36,650 bases of DNA, taken from positions 1 to 36,650 of the forward strand of contig JAFGSG010000013.1 in the NCBI GenBank assembly GCA_016934735.1, in the 5' to 3' direction. Both the position numbers and the translations under genes were made by a program. The notes below the pieces were generated by a model, which was not told the origin of the DNA, did not search any database, and saw only the letters and a list, made by a program, of their open reading frames with translations. Shown in pieces: positions 211 through 10,030 of the stretch. Source of the stretch: Spirochaetota bacterium (GTDB taxonomy: Bacteria > Spirochaetota > UBA4802 > JAFGDQ01). How positions within the stretch are numbered: the stretch's first letter is position 1; each line of letters begins with the position of its first letter.

Positions 211-738
211 ATGGGTGAATATTTCGAACAGCTGCCTGTTACAATTAAAGAGCATATACAGGAAATTACAAAAACGTCCGGGCTTGAGTACAATGAAGAG
301 TCCTTTGAAAAAATGTCTCAGGGATGGGTGGAGAAAAAAAATGCCTTTGAGGAAAATATCGCCTCCTTATTTATGGAAGAACTTAATTCTTTCAGCAAGG
401 ATGATGAACGGGGCGTACTGATCATGACCTATTCCGGTTCGCTTCTAACAGCCGGCCCGATTCAGGGAGATTCCCGGACTATAGAATATATCAGCATAGG
501 AATACGCTCTGACGTTCCAAAAAGTGTCACAGGAAACGGTAGTTTTGCAGAAGATATTGAAACAGATAAAGAAGTAAAATTTAATTCCGGTCCGATAAAA
601 AGCACGTCAGCTGTATATAAAATCGCTGTATGTAAAGAAAATATCAGTGTCGAAGAACAGCAGGAAACATTGAACAATGCCACTGTCGCTCTGGAAGAAG
701 AGTTTACAAATATTAATAAAACTATTATTCTGGAATAA
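211..738 (+). CDS. Hypothetical cytoplasmic protein, 175 aa
   Basis: I do not recognise this protein family. It is acidic and soluble, with no signal peptide, membrane segment or cysteine-rich motif. The N-terminal third looks helical (EYFEQLPVTIKEHIQEI), the middle looks like beta strands (VLIMTYSGSLL, TIEYISIGI), and the C-terminus is a helix rich in Glu, Gln and Asn. The ATG at 211 is preferred over the in-frame ATG at 175 because a strong ribosome binding site (GGAGG, 200-204) sits just before it, and nothing comparable precedes 175. The gene is transcribed alone, between a consensus promoter (118-146) and a strong terminator hairpin (774-808). That argues for a genuine, well-expressed gene. 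No function can be assigned from sequence alone. Confidence 0.8.
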   Translation: MGEYFEQLPVTIKEHIQEITKTSGLEYNEESFEKMSQGWVEKKNAFEENIASLFMEELNSFSKDDERGVLIMTYSGSLLTAGPIQGDSRTIEYISIGIRSDVPKSVTGNGSFAEDIETDKEVKFNSGPIKSTSAVYKIAVCKENISVEEQQETLNNATVALEEEFTNINKTIILE

Positions 739-773
739 ACATTTTTACAAAACAACAATTTTCAATTTTGTAG

Positions 774-820
774 ACGCGGATTTATGTGCTTAAAGCATAA
801 TTCCGCGTTTATACATTTTT
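774..820 (+). terminator. Rho-independent terminator after the 211-738 gene
   Basis: The arms ACGCGGA (774-780) and TCCGCGT (802-808) pair perfectly, and an inner TTATG/CATAA stem extends the hairpin. A T-rich tail follows (ttatacattttt, up to 820). It lies 36 bp past the stop codon. Confidence 0.7.
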
Positions 821-879
821 ATATCTTCTCATTTTTTCTTGACCTCTTATTTTTGATTATTAAAATAAAGTAATTGTGA

Positions 880-888
880 TGGTATAAT
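880..888 (+). promoter_or_regulatory. Extended -10 promoter of the phosphoesterase/kinase operon
   Basis: TGGTATAAT combines an extended -10 TG with a perfect TATAAT at 883-888. There is no good -35 hexamer at 17 bp, which is typical of extended -10 promoters. It lies 55 bp before the ATG at 943 and probably drives all five genes to 7248. Confidence 0.5.
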
Positions 889-942: not shown

Positions 943-1983
943 ATGTATTCGCAGGCACAGTATAACAATCTTAAAACCAGGCTTGTTGAAATTTACCAAA
1001 GAGAACAACCGCCAAAACCGGATGATTATTTAAAAGTATTAATAAATATTAATTCGGTTTTACTGCATGAAGACCAGCAGGTAAGGCCTTATGATTCATC
1101 CGGACTGCCGGGGGGAATAATATATTTGAAGAAAAATATACCCACAATCATTGTGCCTGACATTCATGCCAGAATGGATTTTTTTCTGAATATTATTTTC
1201 GGTGAAGATATAAACGATGAAACAAATTTACAGAAAATAGCTTCAGATGCTTTGCAGATAATTTGTGTCGGCGACGGTGTGCACGGGGAAAAAAGAGCAG
1301 CAAAGAGATGGGCTAAAGCATATAAAGAATTTGAAGGAGATTATGCAGTTCATGATAACATGGATGAAGAAATAAGAGAGAGCCTTGGTCTCATGGAGAT
1401 GGTAATGGAAGTGAAGTCTAATTACCCTGCGAATTTTCATTTTATTAAAGGAAATCATGAGAATATTAAAAACGAAGACGGCGGAGGTAATTATCCTTTT
1501 GTGAAATTTTCATATGAAGGTCCAATGATGGCTTATTATATAAAGAAATTTTATGGTGAAGATTTTTTAGAGCAATATTATCAATTCGAAAAAAATCTGC
1601 CTCTTTTTGCCGTGGGAAAGAATTTTCTTGTTTCGCATGCGGAACCTTTCTCTTTTTACAATAAAGAAGATATATTGGAATACAGAATGAATCCTGAAGT
1701 GATCGAAGGGCTTACATGGACGGCCGATGATTCGGCAAATGACGGAAGCGTTCAGGAGATGTTGGAATATTATATCGACAGTGAAGAAGACAGGGAAAAA
1801 AGCTATTATTTCGGCGGTCACAGGCCTGTAAAGAATTTATATAATCCGAGAGCTGAAGGACGATTTATTCAGATACATAATCCCGATAAATTTATTATAG
1901 CGAAAATCGGAGAAAACAATATTGATTTAGATAGAGATATTTTTGAAATCGAAAATAGGATTGATGAAATAATAAAAAAATAA
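943..1983 (+). CDS. Calcineurin-like metallophosphoesterase
   Basis: This is a predicted dinuclear-metal phosphoesterase of the calcineurin/PPP superfamily. All the blocks are present in order: Asp-x-His (D73, H75 in PDIHARMDF), GDGVH (D111), GNHE (N171, H172), a metal His (H232 in SHAEP) and GGH (H293 in GGHRP). There is no signal peptide, so it should act in the cytoplasm. A helical insert of about 55 residues separates the GD and GNHE blocks. At 346 aa it is longer than minimal PPP phosphatases. It is the first gene of an operon, 12 bp before a Ser/Thr kinase gene, so it may be the phosphatase opposing that kinase. That role is inferred from context. A nucleotide or other phosphoester substrate is equally possible. 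Confidence 0.85.
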   Translation: MYSQAQYNNLKTRLVEIYQREQPPKPDDYLKVLININSVLLHEDQQVRPYDSSGLPGGIIYLKKNIPTIIVPDIHARMDFFLNIIFGEDINDETNLQKIASDALQIICVGDGVHGEKRAAKRWAKAYKEFEGDYAVHDNMDEEIRESLGLMEMVMEVKSNYPANFHFIKGNHENIKNEDGGGNYPFVKFSYEGPMMAYYIKKFYGEDFLEQYYQFEKNLPLFAVGKNFLVSHAEPFSFYNKEDILEYRMNPEVIEGLTWTADDSANDGSVQEMLEYYIDSEEDREKSYYFGGHRPVKNLYNPRAEGRFIQIHNPDKFIIAKIGENNIDLDRDIFEIENRIDEIIKK

Positions 1984-1995
1984 TGAGGGGGATTT

Positions 1996-3948
1996 ATGAG
2001 TCCGGAAACAAACATGGTAGGGAAATATTTAATCACTGCAAAGATCGCAGAAGGGGGAATGGGCGCGATCTATAAGGCTAAACATCCTACTCTTAATAGA
2101 ACAGTTATATTAAAACGGCTTACTTTGAAAAAAAATGCTGCCATTACTGAACGTTTTAAAAGAGAAGCAGAGTTAATGATGGATTTTCGAAATGATAATA
2201 TCGTTCAGGTCTATGACCATTTTAAAGAAGGCAATTCATACTATATTGCGATGGAATATGTTGATGGTGTAAGCCTTGGAGATTTGATAGATAAAAAAAG
2301 ATATATTCCAAATGAAATTGCTGTGCTCATATTCCGCGAAATATGCAAGGCATTGAAATATGCGCATGATAAAACCGTAATACACAGAGACATAAAGCCG
2401 GAGAATGTTTTAATTTCAAAAGAAGGCGAGATAAAACTGACGGACTTCGGTATTGCAACATCCAAAGATACTGAAGATGACGGACTTACATCTGCAGGAA
2501 TGACGCTGGGTACACCGGCTTATATGTCTCCGGAACAAATATCTGATACAAAAGCGGTGGATAACAGAGCTGATATTTATTCTATGGGCGTAGTACTTTA
2601 TAAAATGGTTACAGGCAAAACGCCTTTTCCGAGCAATTTTACCCCGGATGCCATTGCCCAGATAAACAGAGGCGAATATACTTTTCCGCGAAAAATAAAT
2701 CCGAGAGTCAGCCCGTTATTGCAGAAAATTATTAAAAAAGCAATGCATCATAAGGTTAAAAAGAGATATAAGGATCTACAGCATATAATCGATATTTTCT
2801 CAAAGGAATTAAAAAAGAAATACAAAGAACAGGAAACAATAAACAATACAATTAAAGCATATTTGCTGGGCAAAGATGTTGAAACTATTGTGAAAGTAAA
2901 GACCTCCCGGACAATGGGTAAAACAGTAAAAACTGCAGCAACTGCCGTATCATCAAACATTTTTAAAATTATTATTACAGTGATTATTGTTGCTTTAGTG
3001 CTTGCCGGATGCACATTTTTTGCTTATTATAAAGGAATGCATTACGAATATTTAAAAGCAAATGAATACGGCGCGCTTACTGTTGCAGTTAAAATAAGAG
3101 AAAAAGAAAAAAATCCTGAGAATAATTATGTTAGTGCCTTCTTATACGAGTCAGCCGGTAAAGGATACAAACAAGTGGATAACATTTCGTTCGATTTCCA
3201 GGCTGAAAATGAAAATGGTAGTAAATTTATTATTTTAAAATCGAAAAAATTATATTTAAAGACATCCGGTTATCTTCTGCATGTTAATTACGGAAATGTG
3301 AATTTTCAGAAGGATTTTTATTTGAGTCCCAGACAAGTGCAGAAAGCGAATAAGGATATGGTTGATTCGGAAAAAATTGAATTTTTTTACAGGACTATTC
3401 CCCGTCTACCGCTTACTGTTTATTATAAGGTTATAGATAGTTCCAGTAAAAGCGATATTTCAAATGATATCGATTTTTCAATTTATGTGTATAAAAAATG
3501 GATGTCATGGAAGGATTTTATAAAACATAAAAATTATAATGATATTCTTGTTACTGGGACTACGCATAGATTCCTGTTTAAGAAAGACGGATATTATTCG
3601 AGCTTTCGCAAGGTTTACGTCGAACCGGATCATCCTGTACTCACGATGGAGGTTGATCTGACTCCGATACCAGGTGAATTGATTGTACGTTCAAATTATA
3701 TCAGCCCGGAAGTGCTGTTGAATAATTCTCCGTATTATTTATCAGGCGGGAATTACAGAAAATATATAAAGATCGAGCCGAGAAAAAACGAACATAGAAT
3801 GCTGCTGTCACCTGGGGATTATTTTCTAACAGTAAAAAAATCCGGACTTACAAAAACTATTAAAACATCTGTGGAGACAAACAAATCCGCCCGTATATTG
3901 ATTAATTATAATAAAACTAATAATTCTCTGGATTTAGAATTACAATAA
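1996..3948 (+). CDS. Transmembrane Ser/Thr protein kinase (Hanks type)
   Basis: This is a eukaryotic-like kinase of 650 aa. The cytoplasmic catalytic domain (about 8-275) has a glycine-rich loop (AEGGMGAIYKA, 18-28), catalytic Lys40, a complete HRDIKPEN catalytic loop (D132, N137), DFG (150-152) and GTPAYMSPE in the activation segment, so it should be active. A Lys/Thr-rich juxtamembrane stretch leads into one membrane helix (about 322-345). About 300 residues are then predicted outside the cytoplasm. The last part (GELIVRSNYISP and LLSPGDYFLTVKKSG) resembles PEGA-type surface repeats. There are no PASTA repeats. The start follows a GAGGGGG ribosome site. It is cotranscribed with the phosphoesterase upstream and the FHA genes downstream, which are plausible phospho-Thr readers of its output. 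Confidence 0.92.
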   Translation: MSPETNMVGKYLITAKIAEGGMGAIYKAKHPTLNRTVILKRLTLKKNAAITERFKREAELMMDFRNDNIVQVYDHFKEGNSYYIAMEYVDGVSLGDLIDKKRYIPNEIAVLIFREICKALKYAHDKTVIHRDIKPENVLISKEGEIKLTDFGIATSKDTEDDGLTSAGMTLGTPAYMSPEQISDTKAVDNRADIYSMGVVLYKMVTGKTPFPSNFTPDAIAQINRGEYTFPRKINPRVSPLLQKIIKKAMHHKVKKRYKDLQHIIDIFSKELKKKYKEQETINNTIKAYLLGKDVETIVKVKTSRTMGKTVKTAATAVSSNIFKIIITVIIVALVLAGCTFFAYYKGMHYEYLKANEYGALTVAVKIREKEKNPENNYVSAFLYESAGKGYKQVDNISFDFQAENENGSKFIILKSKKLYLKTSGYLLHVNYGNVNFQKDFYLSPRQVQKANKDMVDSEKIEFFYRTIPRLPLTVYYKVIDSSSKSDISNDIDFSIYVYKKWMSWKDFIKHKNYNDILVTGTTHRFLFKKDGYYSSFRKVYVEPDHPVLTMEVDLTPIPGELIVRSNYISPEVLLNNSPYYLSGGNYRKYIKIEPRKNEHRMLLSPGDYFLTVKKSGLTKTIKTSVETNKSARILINYNKTNNSLDLELQ

Positions 3949-3980
3949 TGATTAAAAATAAGAATATTTAGGAGAAACAT

Positions 3981-4871
3981 ATGTCAACCTTAATGAGAAG
4001 AATTTTTCTTTGCATAATAGGCATGCTTGCCGGTTTGGCTGCGTGGCCGTTCGCGGAAACCACTCTGCTTTTTCAGGCAGGGTTCCCGTCTTATCTGGTC
4101 TTCAGCGTTTTTCTGGGAATAATATTCGGCCTTATTATGGGAGGATTTTTCGGCACAAGCGATGGTATTATTATGTCGGTTAAGTCCAATATTATAAGTG
4201 GTGCGGTTTTTGGGATTCTGGTTGGCATTGTCGGTGGTGCAATAGGGTTTTTAATCGGCCAGGCCGCGTTATTTATTATTGGAGATATGCTTATTCATTC
4301 TGCAAAAAGTTTTAACACTATCGGGTTTCCAATATCGAGAGCTGTAGGCTGGGCATTTCTGGGTGTATTCATCGGCATGATTGACGGGGTGCGATCGAGA
4401 TCACTCGATAAGATCAAGGTCGGAATAATCGGCGGTATTATAGGAGGATTTCTGGGAGGGCTGGCCCTTGAGTATTCGAGACTGGTAATTCCAGGAATGC
4501 TGTTCGCCCGTCTGATCGGCCTTCTTGTATTCGGATTATTGATAGGATTTGCTTATGGTTTTGTGGAAAACCGTCTATCCTTCGGTGTTCTCAGGCTTTT
4601 AAACGGTAAATATAAAGGTACTGAATTTTTAATTAACCAGAAAAAGATGAAAATCGGATCATCGGAAAAAAATTCAATTGTATTACTGGGCTATGATAAA
4701 ATATCTGACACTCATGCAGAGCTTGCTATAAAAGGTGATAATGTTGTGATAAAAAAAGCCAGCCCAAAAACCATCATTTCTGTAAACGATGATAAGGTTG
4801 ATGAACATGAGTTGATTATGGATGATGTTGTTGAGATCGGGAATGCCAAGTTTTTATATAAATTCAAATAG
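3981..4871 (+). CDS. Polytopic membrane protein with C-terminal FHA domain
   Basis: The first 200 residues of this 296-aa protein form a Gly/Ile/Phe-rich block of about six membrane helices. The GxxxG-like repeats (IIGGIIGGFLGG near 149-160) suggest tight helix packing. The C-terminal 85 residues form a forkhead-associated domain, with MKIGSSEKNSIVL at 223-235 (phosphopeptide-loop region) and the SDTHAEL block at 242-248 (conserved His245). The usual FHA Arg after the first Gly is replaced, so phospho-Thr binding may be weakened. The FHA domain presumably faces the cytoplasm. The gene lies 32 bp after the kinase gene and 11 bp before the VWA/FHA gene. I infer that it recruits phosphorylated partners to the membrane. 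I do not recognise the membrane block as a named family. Confidence 0.8.
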   Translation: MSTLMRRIFLCIIGMLAGLAAWPFAETTLLFQAGFPSYLVFSVFLGIIFGLIMGGFFGTSDGIIMSVKSNIISGAVFGILVGIVGGAIGFLIGQAALFIIGDMLIHSAKSFNTIGFPISRAVGWAFLGVFIGMIDGVRSRSLDKIKVGIIGGIIGGFLGGLALEYSRLVIPGMLFARLIGLLVFGLLIGFAYGFVENRLSFGVLRLLNGKYKGTEFLINQKKMKIGSSEKNSIVLLGYDKISDTHAELAIKGDNVVIKKASPKTIISVNDDKVDEHELIMDDVVEIGNAKFLYKFK

Positions 4872-4882
4872 GGAGACTAACC

Positions 4883-6322
4883 ATGATAAAATATATTTTT
4901 AATAAAATTATATTTTTAATAATTATATCCGGTTTCAGTTCAGCATCTCTTTTTGCGGATTATGTACGCATATCACAGATTGATTCATCCAGGCTGCTTT
5001 TGAGCCAGGAAGTCAAGGTGTATGTAAGCGTCACTAATGTAGAAGGAGAGCCTGTCGGCAAATTAATGCAGGATGCATTTACTCTTTATGAATCGCCGGA
5101 TTCCAGAAATTTTACAAAAATTCCAGATATAACCGGATTTCAGAGCATGGCGAATTACGAATCCGGAATTAATTTTTTACTTCTTATCGATAATTCCGGG
5201 AGCATGTATAGAAACATGAAGGGTGCAAGGACTAAAAACGAAAGCGATAAAAGAATTTCTCATGCTAAAAAAGCTCTAATTACATTTTTAAAAAGCATCA
5301 GTAATCCGAAGGATACGGTAGGATTAGCGGTATATAATTCTTATTATACATTATTCTCCGGATTGACAGGCGATAAAGCAAAGATAGAAGATTATCTTGA
5401 TAAGATAATGCAGCCCAATCCTGATGAAGCTTTTACTGAAATATATTCAAGCATTTATACTGCTGTTGACGAGTTCAGTTCAGTTAAAGGAAGAAAAGCA
5501 ATAATAGTATTATCCGACGGCCGGAATCAGCCGTATTACAAATACACACGCAAAGCGCATAAAACATTAGGAACAAAGATATTTGAATACGCAGAGCCGG
5601 CTAAATATTGTCAGGAAGAGGGCGTTTCAGTTTACGCGATTAATTTCGGCCCTAAGAGCGAGAGAAAAGATCAGGGGCTGAGCAAAATAGCTTTGCAGAC
5701 AGGCGGGTCTGTTTTTGATGCCTTTGATCCCAGACAGCTCAACGATGTTTATAATAAAATAGTGAATCAGATATTGGGCGAGTATCTTATCTCTTATCCT
5801 GCGACAATGGAGCCGGCTGACAAAAAATATGTTAAAGTAGAATGCAATACTGCAACAGGTTTGGCTTCTGCTGTAAGATTTTATTTCTCAAGTACTGTAT
5901 TCGGTCTTCCGCTGACAAAATTTAATTTTCTTCTTGTAATCCCGTTCCTGCTGGCAGTTGCATTATTATGGCTGTTATCCAATATTAAATTCGAAAAAAA
6001 GAGATCCGATCCGAGTATAGAGGTTTTAAATCCCGGATCTGCAAAGGCATCAACAAATTTCTTTACACTGGATAAAAATAAAAAAACTATTATCGGGGGT
6101 GATCCTTCGGCAGATATGACTCTTTCCGGAGGTGCAACTAAAATAAAGGAAAAACACGCTACTGTAGCATTTGATAAAGTAAAAAAACAGTACACAATAG
6201 TGGCAGATGGCAATTTGACAGTTAACAATAAGCCAGTAAAAACCAAGCTTCTTGAGCCTGGAGATGTAATAAATGTCGGTGGAACTACTATTGTGTTTGA
6301 TGATGGAGAGGTCGATAAATAA
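4883..6322 (+). CDS. VWA domain protein with signal peptide, TM helix and FHA domain
   Basis: The domain order is: a signal peptide or anchor (about 1-25); a short beta region; a von Willebrand A domain (about 95-300) with an intact MIDAS motif D103-x-S105-x-S107 plus T185 and D212 (SDGRN); a membrane helix (about 347-367); and a C-terminal FHA domain (about 400-475, with IKEKHATV as the conserved block). The VWA domain should sit outside the cytoplasm and bind metal-dependent ligands. The FHA domain should sit inside, where the neighbouring kinase could act. The canonical FHA Arg is absent (IIGGDP). The protein looks like a two-faced adaptor linking an envelope interaction to phosphorylation. 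That role is inferred from architecture and operon position. Confidence 0.85.
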   Translation: MIKYIFNKIIFLIIISGFSSASLFADYVRISQIDSSRLLLSQEVKVYVSVTNVEGEPVGKLMQDAFTLYESPDSRNFTKIPDITGFQSMANYESGINFLLLIDNSGSMYRNMKGARTKNESDKRISHAKKALITFLKSISNPKDTVGLAVYNSYYTLFSGLTGDKAKIEDYLDKIMQPNPDEAFTEIYSSIYTAVDEFSSVKGRKAIIVLSDGRNQPYYKYTRKAHKTLGTKIFEYAEPAKYCQEEGVSVYAINFGPKSERKDQGLSKIALQTGGSVFDAFDPRQLNDVYNKIVNQILGEYLISYPATMEPADKKYVKVECNTATGLASAVRFYFSSTVFGLPLTKFNFLLVIPFLLAVALLWLLSNIKFEKKRSDPSIEVLNPGSAKASTNFFTLDKNKKTIIGGDPSADMTLSGGATKIKEKHATVAFDKVKKQYTIVADGNLTVNNKPVKTKLLEPGDVINVGGTTIVFDDGEVDK

Positions 6323-6348
6323 TATAAGAAACAGTTAGGAGTTCTTAT

Positions 6349-7248
6349 ATGCCTATCGATAATCAAAATATAGAAAAAAAGATCGAGATCAAAGATATAC
6401 CTGTTATGCCGCAGGTAGCAACAAAAGTCTTGCAGTTGCAGGAAGATAATCTGGATATTAGTTTTAAAGAACTGGAAAAGATAATACTTCTGGATCCTGC
6501 TATAACAGCCAGAATTTTAAAGGTTGCCAATTCAGCTCTTTACGCGCGACAGCGGGAAATAAAAAACGTCCAGCAGGCAATTACCCTGCTCGGTTTTAAA
6601 ATGATAAAGAGTATGATTCTGCTCGTTTGCGCCTCTAATATTTATGGCAAAAACAAGAAAAAATATAAAGATATTCCCGAAACAATTATCACCAAGTCCT
6701 CAGCTATGGATCTATGGCGTCATCTTGTTTTAACTGCTTTTATAGCAAGGCATATAGCGGTTAAATTAAAGTTAGATGATAAGAAAGAAGACATTTTTGT
6801 CTGCGGTTTGCTTCATGATATTGGAAGAGTAGTGCTAATGGTCAATCAAACTGATCTTTACGGGGAATTTTTAAAAGAAATGGCGAACAACCCGAACGCA
6901 GATGTTCTGATGATTGAAGAAAATTATTTTGGATATAATCACCTGGAGGTTGGGAAAATTGTTCTTGGGAAATGGAACTTTCCTGAAGAATTAATTGATG
7001 TCGTGTTTCAGCATCATTCAAAAAATGCAGATTCGCCCTATAAAAAAAGCATCAATATTGTGGCACTTGCCAATCTCTATGCGCGCATTTTAGTCAACGA
7101 ACAGTTATCCGTGGCAGATGCTGAAAATAGAGACGGTTATGTTAGGACTTTAGCGCTTTCTGAGAGCGATAATGAGTATTATTCTGCGGAATTTTTACAG
7201 GATATTCAGAATGAAGATTTATATAATATCAGCACTGAATTAGAATAA
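6349..7248 (+). CDS. HDOD domain protein
   Basis: This is a 299-aa HDOD (HD-related output domain) protein, a family found in bacterial signalling, often next to two-component, c-di-GMP or motility genes. The hallmark N-terminal block is clear (IPVMPQVATKVLQL, then LLDPAITARILKVANSALY and the NVQQAITLLG stretch). Unusually for HDOD proteins, several HD-phosphohydrolase-like residues remain: H125, H156-D157 (GLLHDIGR), H198 and the H222-H223 pair. Residual metal binding or phosphodiesterase activity therefore cannot be excluded. It has no receiver or GGDEF domain. It is the last gene of the kinase/FHA operon (26 bp gap) and its 3' end overlaps the convergent aminotransferase gene by 9 bp. Confidence 0.88.
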   Translation: MPIDNQNIEKKIEIKDIPVMPQVATKVLQLQEDNLDISFKELEKIILLDPAITARILKVANSALYARQREIKNVQQAITLLGFKMIKSMILLVCASNIYGKNKKKYKDIPETIITKSSAMDLWRHLVLTAFIARHIAVKLKLDDKKEDIFVCGLLHDIGRVVLMVNQTDLYGEFLKEMANNPNADVLMIEENYFGYNHLEVGKIVLGKWNFPEELIDVVFQHHSKNADSPYKKSINIVALANLYARILVNEQLSVADAENRDGYVRTLALSESDNEYYSAEFLQDIQNEDLYNISTELE

Positions 7249-8560: not shown

Positions 8561-9556
8561 TTATAACGGTAGAGTCTTCATCCTTAAATAAAGATCATCT
8601 CTTTTCATTTTCGCTTCTATTATGCCCGATTTGTTCAATCTTGCAAGATAGCCTAAAGCTGATCCGCAATGAATAAGGCTTTTGCTGTTATTTCCGTATA
8701 CTTTTGCAGTAAGATTTTTCAATGACATTTCGTTTGTGCCTTTAAGCACTTTTAAAAAAATATGCGATCGTCTGTCTTTCTTTTTAATTTCCTGTTCCAA
8801 TTTTTTGTACGGATCAGTGACAGGATCTCCATGGCTTGGGAGTATGACCTCAAGATCAAGTGATTGGAGCTTTTGAAGCGATTCAATGTATAAGGATAAA
8901 TTATCCGGTTCCATATATTTAACATTAAATACATCGACAATTCTTTGCGTGGCAATTTCTCTGTAATCGTAGCCTACAAATGTGGAGCCTTTTGAAATGA
9001 TATGATCACCCGTGAAAAGAGCTTTCCGTTCCTCGCTGTAAAGGCATATATGGCCCAGGGTATGACCCGGCGTATAAATAACGCGTAGTCTGACGCTTCC
9101 TGTGTCTATAATATCTCTGTCTTCTAAAAGCGTATCAACTTTCGATTCTTCGATCTTTAAATCATAATCAATCGAATAATTAAGTTCATCGGCAAGCTCC
9201 GGCTCAAAATGCTTTAAATAATTTTTTAAATTCCGGTTTATTTTCTGGGAATTTTCAATTATCGGACCCGCTATAGTTGAGGCGGCTACTGATGCCCCTG
9301 AAATTTCCCGCAGCTTTCTGTCACCGCCGAAATGTTCAATATGTTCGTGTGTATTGACAATTGTTGAAATATTATTAATTGTTTTACCGATCTTTTTTAA
9401 TTTTGAAGAGATGAGTTCTATAGATTGTAAATCACCTAAACCTGAATCTATCAGCACCGGTTCAGTTCCGTCTATATAATAAATATTTAATTTAGGCGTG
9501 GTAGAGAACGGGAGCGGCAGAGTAAGTGAATATATATCATCAAAATTCTTTTTCAA
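8561..9556 (-). CDS. MBL-fold metallo-hydrolase
   Basis: This 331-aa protein belongs to the metallo-beta-lactamase superfamily, with no signal peptide. The metal-binding signature is H70-E71-H72-I73-E74-H75, so Glu replaces the usual Asp of HxHxDH. Later ligands follow in YTPGHTLGH, FTGDHI and LPSHGDP. The last 80 residues (TNEMSLKNLTAKVYG, then LGYLARLNKSGIIEAK) look like a winged-helix-type tail, as seen in LACTB2-like members of this superfamily. The start is TTG, chosen because GGAG lies 7 nt upstream and no ATG fits. It follows the HU gene on the same strand, but the HU terminator separates them. Substrate is unknown; a thioester or phosphodiester is possible. Confidence 0.85.
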   Translation of the reverse strand: MKKNFDDIYSLTLPLPFSTTPKLNIYYIDGTEPVLIDSGLGDLQSIELISSKLKKIGKTINNISTIVNTHEHIEHFGGDRKLREISGASVAASTIAGPIIENSQKINRNLKNYLKHFEPELADELNYSIDYDLKIEESKVDTLLEDRDIIDTGSVRLRVIYTPGHTLGHICLYSEERKALFTGDHIISKGSTFVGYDYREIATQRIVDVFNVKYMEPDNLSLYIESLQKLQSLDLEVILPSHGDPVTDPYKKLEQEIKKKDRRSHIFLKVLKGTNEMSLKNLTAKVYGNNSKSLIHCGSALGYLARLNKSGIIEAKMKRDDLYLRMKTLPL

Positions 9557-9609
9557 GATTTGTCTCCGGAACTCGGGAATAGATGATCCATAAAGTATAA
9601 TAAAAATAA

Positions 9610-9639
9610 TATTACCTCCCCGTTATATGGGCGGGGAGG
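9610..9639 (-). terminator. Terminator after the HU gene
   Basis: The perfect 8-bp stem CCTCCCCG (9615-9622) / CGGGGAGG (9632-9639) has a 9-nt loop. On the minus strand it is followed by a U-rich stretch (AATATTATTTTTATT). It ends the HU transcript just past its stop codon. Confidence 0.7.
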
Positions 9640-9649
9640 CAGTCAAACA

Positions 9650-10030
9650 TTATTTTATTTTTACTTTTGCACCAAGAGAAGCTTCTTTAAAAGCTTTGTT
9701 AAAAACGAATTTAGGAACTTTTGTTGCTTTTTTCGGCGGGATTTTAATTTCCTCCCCGGTTATAGGATTTCTTCCGATTCTTGCTTTTGTAGCAGGCTTT
9801 ACTCTGACATATAATTTGCCGAAGGTGCCTACGGGTACACGCTCGCCGTTTATGGCGCCTGCGCGGATTACATCAAATAAATCTTCAATGATTTCTTTTG
9901 CCTGTTTCTTTGAAATATCATTTTTTTCTGAAACATATTGAATTATTGCAGATGCTGTGCATTTTTCAGGATATTTTACCTTTTTTTTTGCTGTATCCTT
10001 TGCTGCGTTCTTTGATAAATTTTTCGACAT
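9650..10030 (-). CDS. HU/IHF family DNA-binding protein with Lys-rich N-terminal extension
   Basis: This is a histone-like DNA-bending protein of the bacterial HU/IHF family. The core (about residues 26-126) has the dimerisation helices, GTFGKLYVR, and the DNA-binding arm containing the signature RNPITGEEIKIP with its intercalating Pro. HU proteins are usually about 90 aa. This one is 126 aa because of a lysine- and alanine-rich head (AAKDTAKKKVK), which resembles eukaryotic-style basic tails and probably adds non-specific DNA contacts. The start has an excellent AAGGAG site 6 nt upstream. It is transcribed singly, divergent from lexA, with a strong terminator. Expression is presumably high. 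Confidence 0.92.
   Translation of the reverse strand: MSKNLSKNAAKDTAKKKVKYPEKCTASAIIQYVSEKNDISKKQAKEIIEDLFDVIRAGAINGERVPVGTFGKLYVRVKPATKARIGRNPITGEEIKIPPKKATKVPKFVFNKAFKEASLGAKVKIK

Follow-up and report, generated by a model that had tools for sequence, protein, structure and literature searches.

A spirochaete gene cassette with a transmembrane Ser/Thr kinase, a PPP-like phosphoesterase and membrane FHA-fold domains that lack phosphothreonine-binding residues

Ser/Thr phosphorylation in spirochaetes has been little described so far, and a survey from 2005 (PMC1262709) recorded no Ser/Thr kinases in either Treponema pallidum or Borrelia burgdorferi. Contig JAFGSG010000013.1 of the Spirochaetota bacterium assembly GCA_016934735.1 (positions 1 to 36,650, forward strand; 'the window' below is this whole stretch of 36,650 nucleotides) raises two questions: do the genes around its transmembrane Ser/Thr kinase form an inherited unit, and which protein would read the phosphate that the kinase places? 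An earlier note, made from the sequence alone, had described five genes here as a phospho-signalling operon in which two membrane FHA proteins act as readers. We found that four of these genes and a fifth, lying upstream of them, recur in the same order across dozens of spirochaete genera, far beyond chance, and that a soluble FHA protein, here termed sFHA_B, is probably the actual phosphate reader rather than the two membrane proteins.

The cassette and its distribution

The genes at the locus are as follows.
211-738 (+): up187, small soluble protein, the conserved first gene of the module
943-1983 (+): PPE, PPP-like metallophosphoesterase, 346 amino acids (Pfam Metallophos, PF00149, 4.6e-5)
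1996-3948 (+): STK, Hanks Ser/Thr kinase (PF00069, 4e-57) with a transmembrane segment at about residues 313-348 and an ectodomain of about 300 amino acids
3981-4871 (+): mFHA, several Gly-rich transmembrane segments (by hydropathy) followed by a C-terminal FHA-fold domain (PF16697, 1e-11; PF00498, 4.5e-6)
4883-6322 (+): VWA-FHA, N-terminal signal-like segment, VWA domain (PF00092, 2e-14), transmembrane segment at about residues 338-371 and a C-terminal FHA-like domain
6349-7248 (+): HDOD protein (Pfam HDOD, 6e-50), a neighbour outside the conserved module

To place this locus among its relatives, we searched 198 Spirochaetota genomes with mFHA and PPE as queries and took 40 neighbourhoods; a further 79 named loci came from GTDB species genomes by way of a phosphoesterase profile. 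Gene content was scored by profile searches over all open reading frames, giving 101 non-redundant phosphoesterase loci. Many of the genomes are drafts and, as loci were located through PPE, modules that lack it are under-counted. Across these loci the order up187-PPE-STK-mFHA-VWA-FHA is fixed. Among the loci at which each position could be tested, STK follows PPE in 85 of 94 and up187 precedes it in 67 of 88; mFHA and VWA-FHA are present in 57 of 81 and 51 of 73, respectively. Complete five-gene sets were found at 53 loci, with median gaps of 3, 9, 12 and 21 bp.

The five plus-strand reading frames from 943 to 7248, with gaps of 12, 32, 11 and 26 bp, are as first described, and the shared gene order supports a phospho-signalling cassette that is inherited as a unit and includes a transmembrane kinase and a PPP-like phosphoesterase. 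The proposed five-gene operon held only in part: when relatives were compared, as the note had suggested, four of its five genes recurred together, whereas the HDOD gene followed the module in just 2 of the 59 loci that could be tested (the window and G087, a relative of the same family), and up187 had been overlooked as the first gene. We therefore reject the HDOD protein as a member and regard it as a passenger in the window.

The cassette is, as far as sampled, restricted to spirochaetes; three module-positive metagenome-assembled genomes carry other phylum names (L110 'Deferribacteres', L128 'Neomarinimicrobiota' and L182 'Deltaproteobacteria'), which may reflect misnaming or transfer. The statement that no named system has this gene set agrees with the literature searched, in which we found no description of a spirochaete or Treponema FHA-kinase system (subscription papers lay outside the search). 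We also rejected a known defence system, as the PADLOC matches on the kinase were generic kinase-domain matches (PD-T4-6, mad6); among the other four proteins encoded from 943 to 7248, the only PADLOC matches were weak HD hits on the HDOD protein. Variants of the module include that of G023 (locus L074), which has up187, STK and mFHA, the last two set 1.5 kb apart, and no detected phosphoesterase, and L072, where a second kinase gene directly 3' of the module (8814-10028) encodes a 405-amino-acid kinase-zinc ribbon-FHA protein.

Membrane FHA-fold domains and a soluble candidate reader

The absence of the canonical Arg from both membrane FHA domains had been remarked on as odd for phosphothreonine readers, and it proved to be family-wide. 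In alignments of 65 mFHA orthologues, the Arg, Ser and Asn of the phosphothreonine pocket occur in 8, 13 and 5 proteins, respectively, and in 61 VWA-FHA orthologues they occur in 2, 3 and 0; no orthologue of either protein has all three. By contrast, the structural 'VN' is invariant wherever its column is aligned (62/62 mFHA and 59/59 VWA-FHA). Judged by these alignments, the fold is kept in both domains and the phospho-reading residues are not. By Pfam, VWA-FHA has no PF00498 match and a match to Yop-YscD_cpl (PF16697) that falls below the cut-off (2.7e-4). The envelope VWA domain fared better: the residues of its metal-ion-dependent adhesion site are nearly all invariant (D103, S105, S107 and D212 in 61/61 and T185 in 60/61), in support of that part of the original description.

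The original proposal, that both membrane FHA domains recognise kinase targets by their phosphothreonine, whether canonically or otherwise, and that the HDOD protein is a further member, can draw on an FHA fold that is real by Pfam, on the SxxH His kept in 53 of 65 mFHA proteins, on the invariant VN[DN] motif and on the Arg that eight mFHA orthologues still have. Set against this are the complete Arg-Ser-Asn set, found in none of the membrane proteins but in 12 of 12 sFHA_B sequences, and the rarity of the HDOD gene beside the module. Because the three residues have been lost across the family, mFHA and VWA-FHA are unlikely to be membrane phosphothreonine readers, and we consider this account as a whole quite improbable.

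A precedent for such domains comes from type III secretion, in which the membrane proteins SctD/YscD/PrgH have, on the cytoplasmic side, an FHA-fold domain that likewise lacks the phosphothreonine-binding residues. Mutation of the equivalent PrgH residues left secretion unaffected, and the authors judged PrgH unlikely to bind phosphothreonine proteins (PMC3635987). PF16697 matches mFHA; the likeness is nonetheless limited to the FHA-like domain, as mFHA is polytopic and VWA-FHA has a VWA domain, and NCBIfam TIGR02500, the model for type III SctD, gave 12.8 bits where its cut-off is 86. By this analogy, a scaffold or assembly role for mFHA and VWA-FHA may be inferred. An FHA fold that persists within a kinase operon after its phosphate-reading residues have been lost warns against deducing phosphothreonine signalling from an FHA annotation alone.

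Spirochaetes also encode other proteins with the VWA-transmembrane-FHA architecture of the module protein, at about 500 amino acids. One such paralogue in the window's own genome (G000, contig C87; locus L004) is 505 amino acids long and, unlike the module copy, retains GRS and SxxH-type residues in its FHA domain.

The candidate reader, sFHA_B, is a soluble FHA protein of about 113 amino acids with an intact Arg/Ser/Asn set: Arg43, Ser58, Asn80 and Thr4 are invariant in its alignment (A6), and an N-terminal Thr-[Ile/Val] is present in 36 of 36 distinct proteins. Its gene lies directly upstream of PPE-STK in 10 of 10 loci of the Treponema-type family f24 and in the named species Brucepastera parasyntrophica, although L178, a metagenome-assembled genome named Treponema, is an exception; in several further families it is found close to the module. 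Profile searches set the class clearly apart: its members match over the full length at 118-169 bits, whereas the next class reaches at most 85 bits and mostly matches just the FHA domain. Full-length sFHA_B was found in 30 of the 198 genomes, 28 of which have PPE, with the other two (G023 and G074) having STK and mFHA. This co-occurrence is strong (Fisher's exact test, 5e-24, not corrected for phylogeny). As the only check on phylogeny, we tested within family f3 (17 genomes, with the module patchily distributed), in which the three sFHA_B-positive genomes are all among the four with PPE (p = 0.006). The window's genome encodes sFHA_B on contig C99; on contig C42 it carries sFHA_A, another soluble FHA protein, orthologues of which adjoin the module in further genomes.

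Solved structures that match sFHA_B include GarA and OdhI, the FHA switches that act with PknB/PknG. Phosphorylation controls GarA through the two threonines of its N-terminal ETTS motif, and the GarA/OdhI-type switch has been described as unique to Actinobacteria (PMC12321487). The spirochaete protein differs in having D-x-T-[IV] in place of ETTS; further differences are a phosphatase that is PPP-like and, in Treponema, a kinase that is co-encoded with sFHA_B.

The kinase-phosphoesterase pair and a proposed mechanism

The kinase active site was reported as intact, and this extends to the family: K40, H130-R131-D132, D150-F151-G152 and E180 are invariant in 21 orthologues, corresponding to the VAIK Lys, HRD, DFG and APE-region Glu of Hanks-type kinases. 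STK shares its kinase-transmembrane-ectodomain layout with the PASTA kinases (PknB/PrkC/Stk1), and the PASTA model NF033483 aligns over its kinase and transmembrane parts. We rejected STK as a PASTA kinase, however, as that match (281.8 bits) is below the curated cut-off of 450 and Pfam gave no PASTA match. Its ectodomain is instead predicted with AlphaFold2 to be largely beta strands (pLDDT 90.9); a fold search with this model returned Ig-like, beta-sandwich and TIE-protein matches at low TM-score and no ligand family. Just two full-length Hanks kinases are encoded in the window's genome, leaving few candidates for the enzyme upstream of sFHA_B.

For the phosphoesterase, the reported intact active site held for the metal ligands (DxH, GD, GNH and two distal His): D73, H75, D111, N171, H232 and H293 are invariant in 33 orthologues, as is H172. 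It did not hold for the PPP signature GDxxDRG, which reads GDGVHGE in the window and GDGxHxE/R across the aligned orthologues. With the DRG arginine lost, PPE is only a putative protein phosphatase. PPE might instead be a nucleotide or other small-molecule phosphoesterase, akin to ApaH, through which the cassette would couple a nucleotide signal to the kinase. The replacement of DRG by GDGxHxE would fit such an enzyme, as would the breadth of the PF00149 superfamily and the weak profile match to solved structures, which links PPE to eukaryotic PP1 around the GNHE motif and is confined to it. We nevertheless think this fairly unlikely, given the tight pairing of PPE with a Ser/Thr kinase throughout the phylum and the fact that PP1 and PP5 are the nearest solved sequences.

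From gene order, co-inheritance, residue conservation and loss, and co-occurrence we infer the biochemical steps of a model, to which we give about an even chance, that combines periplasmic sensing, reversible Thr phosphorylation, a GarA-like soluble FHA output and a pseudo-FHA membrane scaffold. The Ig-like ectodomain of STK and the VWA domain would sense, or dock to, something in the periplasm. STK would phosphorylate the N-terminal Thr of sFHA_B, which, like GarA and OdhI, would then bend back onto its FHA domain or exchange partners, and PPE would take the phosphate off again. The two membrane proteins would form a scaffold, their FHA-fold domains serving as phospho-independent assembly modules like those of SctD/YscD. 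The remaining protein, up187, might be a soluble adaptor, perhaps linked to chromatin because 27 of 75 testable loci have, upstream of the module and in divergent orientation, another up187 copy that is fused to an HU domain (PF00216; for example, L070:11830-12795 and L084:3340-4212), although the window's genome has none.

Several observations weigh against this model. The sFHA_B gene is unlinked to the module in the window's genome, its motif is TI/TV and not ETTS, and it was not found in 9 of 37 PPE-positive genomes, including G130, which is a single contig and 99% complete; sFHA_B therefore cannot be the sole output. The lost DRG arginine of PPE also counts against it. In families f8 and f21, the five loci with PPE (followed by STK in four of them) show no mFHA or VWA-FHA within the stretches read; these two genes, and up187 too, are missing from Treponema loci. 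The scaffold is therefore optional. Finally, in the window, a 204-bp gap and a strong hairpin between up187 and PPE suggest that up187 is transcribed separately.

The optional scaffold bears on another account, in which the cassette is mainly a machine for envelope assembly or mechanosensing: VWA-FHA and mFHA would be structural, the kinase would merely tune them and sFHA_B would belong to another pathway. A Gly-rich polytopic mFHA, pseudo-FHA domains and a periplasmic VWA domain with its metal-binding site do look structural, and up187, mFHA and VWA-FHA travel together. Yet the Treponema-type loci retain only sFHA_B-PPE-STK, so the scaffold is not required for the phosphorylation core to exist, and the occurrence of sFHA_B follows that core. 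We regard this account as improbable.

The ingredients of the cassette (kinase, phosphatase, FHA and VWA) are also those of the Thr-phosphorylation pathway of type VI secretion (PpkA-PppA-Fha1), in which PpkA itself carries a VWA domain (PMC1262709). In the cassette, however, the VWA domain is on a separate membrane protein, the phosphatase is PPP-like and not PP2C, and the module's FHA proteins are degenerate, lacking the phosphothreonine-binding residues. No recurrent secretion gene appeared among the shared neighbours, and no VipB/TssC (PF05943) was found in the window's genome (91% complete), whereas the same search found it in an E. coli control. With no sheath genes in that genome, we rejected a link to type VI secretion, and a variant of that pathway is highly improbable.

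The relay through sFHA_B has a broader form, which we offer only tentatively: spirochaetes may have evolved their own eukaryote-like system, made up of a kinase/PPP pair, a GarA-like switch, a pseudo-FHA/VWA scaffold and a new-fold up187 adaptor, with the up187-HU fusion perhaps tying envelope state to the nucleoid. The cassette is a phylum-wide system defined gene by gene, and Treponema-family genomes offer a testable kinase-phosphatase-substrate triad.

up187, its downstream region and neighbouring genes

Although the open reading frame of up187 opens at 175, conservation places the start at the ATG of position 211, behind GGAGG; orthologue alignments all begin at MGEYF. The protein is encoded in 28 of the 198 genomes, including 24 of the 24 with mFHA. 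It has no Pfam match, and its AlphaFold2 model (pLDDT 86.5) found no fold match in the PDB at E <= 0.001. Scattered hits of single family members to WipA_Phos, Rtt106_N and ACD were taken as chance and rejected.

Two features lie between up187 and PPE.
769-813 (+): strong hairpin with a 12 + 6 bp stem (-23.5 kcal/mol; z = -6.5 against dinucleotide shuffles)
860-888 (+): promoter-like sequence TTAAAA-17-TATAAT, its second hexamer preceded by TG (motif scan)

The hairpin is a possible terminator or processing site; it is followed by only a weak T tract, and a terminator scan did not list it. The extended -10 promoter claimed for the operon is present as a motif, with TATAAT ending at 888 and the preceding TG, but sites of this class are not enriched in the region (32 matches against 28.6 +/- 5.5 in shuffles).

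Beyond the module, an HU-family DNA-binding protein is encoded nearby on the minus strand (9650-10030; PF00216, 2.6e-22). Between 10238 and 15213, on the plus strand, the window encodes, consecutively, a LexA-like repressor, an ImuB-like Y-family polymerase (PF00817) and a DnaE2-like polymerase III alpha subunit (PF07733), which together look like a LexA-ImuB-DnaE2 SOS mutagenesis cassette.

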